From NCBI GenBank assembly GCA_029762625.1, contig JARVGI010000001.1, positions 1 to 64,000 of the forward strand: DNA of 64,000 nucleotides, given 5' to 3'. The stretch comes from Methanomicrobiaceae archaeon. GTDB lineage: Archaea > Halobacteriota > Methanomicrobia > Methanomicrobiales > Methanomicrobiaceae. A program made the position numbers and the translations under genes. Numbering within the stretch: the first letter of the stretch is position 1; each line of letters opens with the position of its first letter. Below, piece after piece: positions 4,511 to 35,531 of the stretch. The notes under the pieces were generated by a model that saw only the letters and a list, made by a program, of their open reading frames with translations, was not told the DNA's origin and searched no databases.

Positions 4511-5209
4511 ATGGCAGAGCAGATACAGGATGAGGGGAAACGCCTTGCCGGACGCCATGCGGCGGACCTGGTCGAGGAAGGGATGATTATCGGGCTGGGA
4601 ACCGGATCCACGGTGCTCTATGCGATGGAGCGGCTTGCCGAGCGAATGAACGAGGGTCTCTTTTTCTGCGGGGTCCCGACATCGTACCAGGCCGAACTGC
4701 GGGCACGGGCGTTCGGGATACCCCAGACCAGCCTTGCGGACTGCTGCGAGCTGGATCTTGCCATCGATGGCGCGGACCAGGTGGACCGTTCATTGCGGCT
4801 CATCAAGGGGCGGGGTGCTGCCCAGACGCGCGAGCGGTGCATCGCCGAAGCGGCTCGCCGCCTGGTAATCGTCGTCGATGAAGGAAAACTGACCGATACG
4901 TTTTCAGCCCCGGTCCCGGTGGAGGTCCTTCCCTTCGCCGTGCCGCTCGTGGCACGCAGGCTTACCGGAATGGGTGGATCGCCGGTCATTCGCGAGGGGG
5001 TTGCCAAGGACGGCCCGGTGATCACCGACAACGGCAACTGGGTGATCGACTGCACGTTTTCGTCGATGGATGACCCCGAAGCTCTCGAGACGGCAATCAA
5101 TACACTCCCGGGAGTGCTCAGCTGCGGGCTGTTCTGCGAATTTGCCGGGAAAACAACTGTCCTAATAGGGGAAAAAGAGGGTATCCGCACCCTTCAGACC
5201 GAGATATAA
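4511..5209 (+). CDS. rpiA: Ribose-5-phosphate isomerase A
   Basis: A 232-residue enzyme interconverting ribose 5-phosphate and ribulose 5-phosphate. Motifs include the phosphate-binding GLGTGSTV, the catalytic-region DGADQVD and KGRGAA, and the late GMGGSP. The ATG at 4511 was chosen because GAGGGAG lies at the right distance; an in-frame ATG at 4496 has no ribosome site. Together with Fae-Hps at 34-35 kb it supplies pentose phosphates by the ribulose monophosphate route. Its last 16 bases overlap the convergent regulator gene. Confidence 0.92.
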   Translation: MAEQIQDEGKRLAGRHAADLVEEGMIIGLGTGSTVLYAMERLAERMNEGLFFCGVPTSYQAELRARAFGIPQTSLADCCELDLAIDGADQVDRSLRLIKGRGAAQTRERCIAEAARRLVIVVDEGKLTDTFSAPVPVEVLPFAVPLVARRLTGMGGSPVIREGVAKDGPVITDNGNWVIDCTFSSMDDPEALETAINTLPGVLSCGLFCEFAGKTTVLIGEKEGIRTLQTEI

Positions 5210-5571
5210 TCACGGACTTTGTGAATCAGGTCGAGCTGGGTTTCCACTTCTTTTCGCTTTTCCTTCTCGATGATGTCCATGATCTCCTCGATGGGGCGGG
5301 AAAGCGTATAGATCTTGACGGGGCGTCCTTTGCTTTCAGCCTTGCTTTCCCTGCTCTCGATCCAGCCGTTTTCTTTCAGGGTGCGCATGGCGATGCTCAC
5401 TTCCGGCTGGCGGAGGTCGGTGCCGCGCTCGATGTCGCGGGAGGTTGCATCCGTGGTGTTCGCCAGATAAATCAGGACTTTTGCTACATTCCTCTTCAGA
5501 CCAATGTCCATGAGAAGCTGCGCAAATTCCTCTTCTCTGGGAGTGAAGTACATTACTTTCTCTGATCTCAT
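5194..5571 (-). CDS. Winged-helix (TrmB/ArsR-like) transcriptional regulator
   Basis: A 125-residue DNA-binding protein. Residues about 8-85 form a winged helix: a helix around AKVLIYLANT, the recognition region SRDIERGTDLRQPEVSIAMR, then a wing with SKGRPVKIYTL. The C-terminus (about 90-125) is a charged helix likely to mediate dimerisation. Such one-domain regulators are common in Methanomicrobiales; the target is unknown. The ATG at 5571 follows AGGTGAAAGG. AT-rich promoter DNA lies just upstream, and a perfect palindrome at 5646-5662 could be its own operator. Confidence 0.8.
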   Translation of the reverse strand: MRSEKVMYFTPREEEFAQLLMDIGLKRNVAKVLIYLANTTDATSRDIERGTDLRQPEVSIAMRTLKENGWIESRESKAESKGRPVKIYTLSRPIEEIMDIIEKEKRKEVETQLDLIHKVRDYISV

Positions 5572-6089: not shown

Positions 6090-6380
6090 ATGACCCCGAA
6101 AGATGAGACCCGGAGCATGCCCCCCGAAGGATGGCTGAAGGCGGGAAATGTCGATTTCCTTTTCGGACGCTATGAGGAGGCAATCAAGGCGTATGATCAG
6201 GCGATGGGGCTGTACCCGAGCAACGACGTGGTCAAGGCCAACAAAGCGATTGCCGAGTACAGGCTCAAAAACCCGAAACCTGCACGCCAGGAGCCCGTGG
6301 CCGAGCCCGCTCCCACCGCGCAACCGGCACCCGCTCAAGAGGGATTTTTCGGCAAAGTACGTTCATGGCTCGGGTTCTGA
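6090..6380 (+). CDS. Small TPR-repeat protein
   Basis: A 96-residue protein. Residues about 12-58 form one to one and a half tetratricopeptide units (WLKAGNVDFLFGRYEEAIKA, then YDQAMGLYPSNDVVKANKA), which normally bind partner peptides. Residues about 62-82 are a Pro/Ala-rich linker and the end is an amphipathic FFGKVRSWLGF. No signal peptide or membrane helix is visible. The start is well supported by AAGGAG and a TATA box. Function is unknown beyond a probable adaptor role. Confidence 0.8.
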   Translation: MTPKDETRSMPPEGWLKAGNVDFLFGRYEEAIKAYDQAMGLYPSNDVVKANKAIAEYRLKNPKPARQEPVAEPAPTAQPAPAQEGFFGKVRSWLGF

Positions 6381-6638
6381 CACGGTGATGCGTCCCTCAT
6401 GCATGAAATCAGGGCGGTCGCACGTACCGGAGGATTGTACTGCACGCGATGCCGTATTGTTCAACGAAGCGGCGTACAATCCCCTCCCGGCATGTTCCGC
6501 GAATGCCCAATCGCATCTCTTTCGGGAACAGTAGCCGTACATGAGCCTCCTTCTTCTGCGGTACAATCGCGGCGGTGATGCCGGGCCCGTGCCGCCGGCC
6601 GGTATGCCGGTGGCCCCGGATGAGGATTGCTAAAAAAG

Positions 6639-35359: not shown

Positions 35360-35531
35360 TGGGGTCGGTGAGATTTGAACTCACGATCGACGGGTCTCTC
35401 CGACATGCGAGAGAGCGCTGCAATTTGCATCAGTGCTCCAACGGATCCTCATGTTGTATCAGGAGACCCATTGTTCATCATTCGCAAAGACCGCTGGAGC
35501 CCGTCGCCATGCCGGACTAGGCCACGACCCC
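35360..35531 (-). tRNA. tRNA-Trp (CCA) with intron
   Basis: Two exons: 35494-35531 and 35360-35395 (74 bases after splicing). Acceptor stem GGGGTCG pairs with CGACCCC; T-arm GTGAG-TTCAAAT-CTCAC; the spliced anticodon arm is ACGGG-CTCCAGA-CCCGT, anticodon CCA. The 98-base intron lies between positions 37 and 38, the canonical archaeal site. CCA 3' end is not encoded. It is 64 bases upstream of fae-hps on the same strand. Confidence 0.93.
35396..35493 (-). ncRNA. C/D box guide RNA within the tRNA-Trp intron
   Basis: Read on the minus strand the intron holds C box ATGATGA, D' box CTGA after GGGTCTC, a C'-like ATGAGGA, and D box CTGA after TTGGAGCA. Counting five bases upstream of each CTGA, the D guide places 2'-O-methylation on C34 (TGGAGC pairs with GCTCCA) and the D' guide on C39 (GGGTCT pairs with AGACCC across the spliced junction). 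This reproduces the tRNA-Trp intron guide known in Haloferax and Pyrococcus, with C rather than U at 39. Confidence 0.85.

Follow-up and report, generated by a model that had tools for sequence, protein, structure and literature searches.

We examined the tRNA-Trp(CCA) gene of a Methanomicrobiaceae archaeon within a contig stretch of 64,000 nucleotides (the window). Judged by its sequence, the intron of this gene is orthologous to the box C/D sRNA encoded in euryarchaeal tRNA-Trp introns, and represents a known system in one more organism. Our explanation, in which we place high confidence, is that the intron encodes a C/D sRNA that directs formation of Cm34 and Cm39 on its own tRNA while this is still unspliced, and that splicing follows. 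Comparison of 207 distinct introns supplies covariation that points to the unspliced precursor as the target phylum-wide, places U39 in haloarchaeal-type introns instead of C39 being the change, and reveals guide losses in several families.

The two exons join to give a 74-nt tRNA with the anticodon loop CUCCAGA (Table 1). The exon-intron boundaries form a bulge-helix-bulge (BHB) motif, in which residues 32-35 pair with intron bases -6 to -3 (4/4) in a 4-bp central helix flanked by 3-nt bulges, with the cut after base 37. ARAGORN, as run, did not call this gene. The same-strand gene downstream, at 35335-34106, encodes Fae and OMPdecase/HUMPS domains. Read on the reverse complement of 35396-35493, the boxes start at intron positions 13 (ATGATGA), 32 (CTGA), 42 (ATGAGGA) and 61 (CTGA), spaced as in archaeal C/D sRNAs, and a 34-nt 3' extension follows box D. 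The initial annotation had proposed a 98-base intron holding C, D', C' and D boxes in this order, and had suggested a covariance-model search as a check. Searching Rfam with cmscan returned sR3 (RF01133) at 35428-35485 on the reverse strand, covering the whole model with 58.6 bits (E 5.4e-12) relative to a gathering score of 41 bits, which together with the sequence bears out the proposal.

Table 1 Parts of the tRNA-Trp gene and its intron in the window.
Feature	Position	Strand	Basis
Intron-containing tRNA-Trp(CCA) gene; no 3' CCA tail in the precursor	35360..35531	-	RF00005, 47.7 bits (cmscan); sequence
5' exon, ending CUCCAG (32-37)	35494..35531	-	Sequence; stem 27-31 pairs with 39-43
98-nt intron at 37/38, containing the C/D sRNA	35396..35493	-	Sequence
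3' exon, starting A38 C39	35360..35395	-	Sequence
C box ATGATGA	35475..35481	-	Sequence; sR3 alignment
D' guide N9-N1, N5 opposite C39; partners intron -3 to -1 and tRNA 38-43	35463..35471	-	
D' box CTGA	35459..35462	-	Sequence
C' box ATGAGGA; TGAGGA form shared with congeners L275, L276 and with L029	35446..35452	-	
D guide N11-N2, N5 opposite C34; partners tRNA 31-37 and intron bases 1-3	35435..35444	-	
D box CTGA	35430..35433	-	Sequence
GGAG, intron strand of BHB central helix; partner CUCC 32-35	35398..35401	-	4/4 pairs
UUUGCG, 5' strand with two possible 3' partner strands	35483..35488	-	
UGCAAA, following box D; closes the C/D fold with a 6-bp terminal stem	35424..35429	-	
UCGCA, close to 3' splice junction; competing 5-bp partner that overlaps on 5' strand UUUGCG	35406..35410	-	
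CAAUGG (D' N11-N6), complement of D-guide CCGUUG	35468..35473	-	
CCGUUG (D N11-N6), partner of CAAUGG	35439..35444	-	

Against the unspliced precursor, the D guide (N2-N11) makes 10/10 pairs, one of them G.U, with G31..G37 and intron bases 1-3, and the D' guide (N1-N9) makes 9/9 pairs, also with one G.U, with the three bases at the 3' end of the intron and residues 38-43. The box-plus-five rule then selects C34 for the D guide and C39 for the D' guide, in agreement with the targets named in the initial annotation. Dinucleotide shuffles of the intron, 20,000 in all, were scored for standard pairing to the unspliced precursor, and not one reached 10 (D) or 9 (D'), nor 8 and 7 jointly. Given this result, the sR3 E value and the RF01133 matches in 235 of the 392 genomes of the phylum, we count as refuted the idea that an ordinary tRNA intron has come to hold C/D-like motifs by chance.

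In the proposed mechanism the intron would be bound by L7Ae, Nop5 and fibrillarin. The D guide, lying across the 5' exon-intron junction, would direct ribose methylation of C34 and the D' guide, lying across the 3' intron-exon junction, would direct that of C39, after which the endonuclease would cleave the BHB motif. The genome encodes fibrillarin (205 bits), two L7Ae-family genes and, in the ORF adjoining fibrillarin, a Nop domain (141.8 bits), and thus the RNP can be built. For the methylation itself, its order and any action in trans, we infer from work on Haloferax. The window sRNA is a complete and probably working member of the known system.

For the comparative sample, named genomes were scanned with a pattern, giving at least 119 loci among the matches listed; at least 109 of these, plus the window locus, could be parsed as an intact pre-tRNA-Trp containing this intron. 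RF01133 matches 80 of the 83 genomes of the order, the window's own genome counted. For the 157 genomes of the phylum without a match, a tRNA-Trp pattern was run on sets of 80 and 75 (67 and 70 matched) and two genomes were examined separately; 107 tRNA loci from RF01133-negative genomes were read. The pooled loci comprise 310 parsed precursors, 236 of them distinct and 208 with both guides by script, reduced to 207 on removal of L307, a mis-parse with a gap at the 3' junction. The other 28 distinct precursors include 16 that are intronless and five in which the script's D'-box expression missed the guides (L156/L190/L200; L313; L328; L329; L330). Further script failures were an assembly gap (L188), a decayed intron (L186) and short ones (L243, L263, L264, L265, L267). 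Loci L055 and L088 begin within the intron, and L099 passed the first parser and failed the second, and so stands outside the 207. Since the locus pattern and RF01133 do not reach haloarchaeal introns, early samples were biased to C39, and the U39 introns were gathered by the independent tRNA pattern. The Haloferax volcanii control matched RF01133 at a lax threshold only, and no U39 intron came from a model match.

The initial annotation had the guides pairing across the spliced anticodon loop, and here the comparison speaks against it. Throughout 208 introns, D N3-N7 lie opposite residues 32-36 and are paired in all rows, with N5 on C34. Beyond the exon, N9 forms a Watson-Crick pair with intron base 1 in 207/207 (G-C 138, T-A 67, A-T 2), and in all but a few introns N10 and N11 lie opposite partners at intron positions 2 and 3. 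Intron base 3 and N11 are both altered in L361, and in L099, outside the 207, the intron start UUA and guide bases N9-N11 (A, G, U) are altered together. At the other junction D' N3 is paired to the final intron base in 205/207 (C-G 140, A-U 65), the remaining two being the C-U combinations of Methanothrix L086 and L095. The guide duplexes therefore span the exon-intron junctions, as d'Orval and colleagues are said to have described in 2001. This covariation with intron bases at both splice junctions indicates that evolution has kept the unspliced precursor as the substrate and, because intron bases join both duplexes, both predicted methylations most likely precede splicing.

The excised intron might instead act in trans on the spliced tRNA, after splicing. 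Most of each window duplex survives splicing (D N2-N8, D' N2-N9); the D pairing is gone from N9 on (G versus A38) and D' N1 comes to lie opposite C35. In L086 and L095, where D' N3 is a C facing a terminal intron U, the spliced tRNA is the better fit at this position, and passages in the reviews PMC11408192 and PMC4090602 state that the excised intron can work in trans. However, the bases that covary are intron bases, and the spliced partners fail often: D N9 is unpaired with A38 in 141/208, D N10 with residue 39 in 208/208 and D' N3 with position 37 in 70/208. A section of PMC2584109, which places the arrangement in at least 29 archaea, likewise holds that methylation must precede splicing since intron sequence enters the pairing. 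We consider action on the spliced tRNA improbable, and retain the unspliced precursor as the preferred substrate.

Residue 39 and D' N5 form three combinations across the 207 introns, C39:G (142), U39:A (57) and U39:G (8). The initial expectation that the guide had co-varied with the tRNA is thus upheld at the scale of the phylum, but C39 is not special to this organism, as had been supposed. The textbook state, U39, is confined to 65 haloarchaeal-type introns, C39 occurs in 142/207, and the RF01133 consensus guide CGGGUCU itself implies C39. The covariation mainly follows one split, between the haloarchaeal-type introns and the rest, and the window has the common pair. A recent compensated change to C39 in the window's lineage is ruled out, C39 being the common state. 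Two introns (L023, L211) have C39 beside haloarchaeal features, namely A as intron base 1, the CUCCAGA decoy described below and the CUGAUCA loop. Judging by their tRNA and intron sequences, the U39 genomes are presumably Halobacteria.

We compared the window intron to the nearest known systems. Haloferax and Pyrococcus had been put forward as examples of the same logic, and both provide close counterparts. The Haloferax volcanii pre-tRNA-Trp intron (Cm34, Um39) shares the tRNA, intron position, box order, target positions and guides reaching into the intron. Introns of the haloarchaeal type have U39 with guide A or G, A as intron base 1, U as last base, D boxes that are often CCGA and a D'-C' hairpin with the loop CUGAUCA, whereas in the window C39 faces guide G, the intron begins with C and ends with G, and the D'-C' spacer is short. 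Relative to RF01133 sR3, the Pyrococcus tRNA-Trp intron sRNA, few positions differ; the window has UGAGGA as C' in place of the model's UGAUGA and has the 3' extension after box D. Part of PMC7994747 calls the Pyrococcus intron sRNA sR50, which we take to be the same RNA as sR3. The sR49-type C/D guide for Cm34 of archaeal tRNA-Met also targets residue 34 using precursor intron bases, according to a passage in PMC2584109, but is encoded outside the target intron.

The D'-C' spacer varies among relatives. The CUGAUCA loop of the apparent D'-C' hairpin is found in 64/65 U39 introns and also in the two haloarchaeal-type introns with C39, on a flanking stem that varies (L211-L242, L313-L361). In several Methanomicrobiales (L181, L183, L187, L189, L190, L308) the spacer is enlarged, apparently by hairpins, to give introns of 129-207 nt that retain the C/D boxes and guides. 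One genome of haloarchaeal type, G323, has two pattern-matching tRNA-Trp genes (L321, L343) far apart on one contig.

Loss of the guide is documented elsewhere in the phylum. Among the fetched loci, 21 have a tRNA-Trp gene that lacks an intron (16 distinct sequences; families f10, f11 and f19), and in 5 loci the intron is reduced to 23-39 nt: family f16 has 32-39 nt and no boxes, and genome G007 has 23 nt with a leftover ATGATGA. These losses agree with the dispensability of the Haloferax intron reported in parts of PMC7714728 and PMC11408192, and the guide is dispensable in nature. Loss of the boxes in a close relative that keeps the intron, which the initial annotation had named as evidence against itself, does occur in the same order: L186 (G237) retains a 96-nt intron with a C box, while guides and D boxes are decayed. 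Being 1 of 83 genomes, this case reads as local decay. The order's other genomes without a match are G352, with an assembly gap at the locus, and G168, in which no tRNA-Trp exons were found.

We searched for free-standing replacements of the missing guide in 37 genomes with two patterns restricted to exact canonical boxes, which would miss divergent replacements; they matched in 4 and 0 genomes, none convincingly. Three of the matches (L272, L273, L274) lie inside long open frames and were rejected; the fourth (L271) falls in no long frame, but its second guide is very short and it has no Rfam match.

With guide loss common elsewhere, and with deletion of the intron tolerated in Haloferax (Joardar 2008, as cited in a part of PMC7714728), the window intron could be a decayed relic, its boxes inherited and no methylation taking place in this organism. 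Against this, the boxes and both guides are complete in the window, the congeners depart from it chiefly in the tail of the intron and the D'-C' spacer, with the guide kept in both congeners examined, and the RNP genes are present. A relic is therefore very unlikely, and we favour an intron that still guides methylation of its own precursor.

Next, we considered pairing between the guides. In the 65 U39 introns, the stretch immediately preceding the D' guide faces no target and is a complement of the D guide; the mean duplex energy is -12.3 kcal/mol versus -3.8 with these free bases shuffled, and lower in 65/65. The usual decoy is ACUCCAGA, an octamer directly before the D' guide that is identical to the D guide's target (31-37 and intron base 1). 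Variants pair with the D guide in a shifted register (e.g. L212, L214, L242, L327), and rewritten decoys also still pair (CUUCGAGGG in L213/L315/L316; ACUCCAGGG in L317/L318). The C39 group commonly has a six-pair helix, CAAYGG:CCGUUG, with a mean duplex energy of -10.2 versus -8.1 shuffled and lower in 126/141 (including the mis-parsed L307), although this is a weak test, four of the six pairs being already forced by the two targets.

We folded a set of 138 + 2 + 65 introns, omitting those above 170 nt or with N. In the naked precursor the predicted probability of guide-guide pairing is 0.71 (C39), 0.69 (U39) and 0.80 (window), versus 0.19 (C39) and 0.04 (U39) for pairing of the D guide with its cis target. 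RNAfold predicts the BHB central helix weakly, with a mean pair probability of 0.13 in the window and 0.09 in the C39 group, and the low values in the C39 group count against a simple splicing-fold reading there. It is possible, though we lean towards doubting it, that the intron may be a self-masking guide, its C34 guide covered by guide-guide pairing until the C/D proteins open it. The mask would be the decoy in Halobacteria and the shorter CAAYGG:CCGUUG helix in the clade of the window. If true, the masking would determine in which order folding, methylation and splicing occur. If the pairing is real, the conflict between a splicing fold and a methylating fold would be testable by point changes outside the target-pairing bases. 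In 2003 Bortolin reportedly described a methylation fold and a splicing fold that exclude each other. Our literature search, which was not aimed at such pairing by name, met nothing on guide-guide pairing, and we make no claim that it is unpublished. A further potential switch, the terminal-stem strand UUUGCG with its two 3' partners, is present in the window and in several relatives with a 3' extension, and its 5' strand is nearly invariant.

Finally, a second tRNA-Trp copy was observed in the Methanoregula MAG LacPavin_0920_SED3_MAG_49_39 (L024, about 5130-5260, reverse strand) and also as L306 in G406; the two carriers, G392 and G406, are ~99% alike there. In L024 this pseudogene has lost the anticodon and much of the 5' exon and lies ~1.1 kb from the intact gene (about 6290-6516, reverse strand), with a 263-aa ORF between the copies. 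It retains an intact sR3 (59.4 bits) and adjoins a Fae-HUMPS-like ORF, as the intact gene does in the window.
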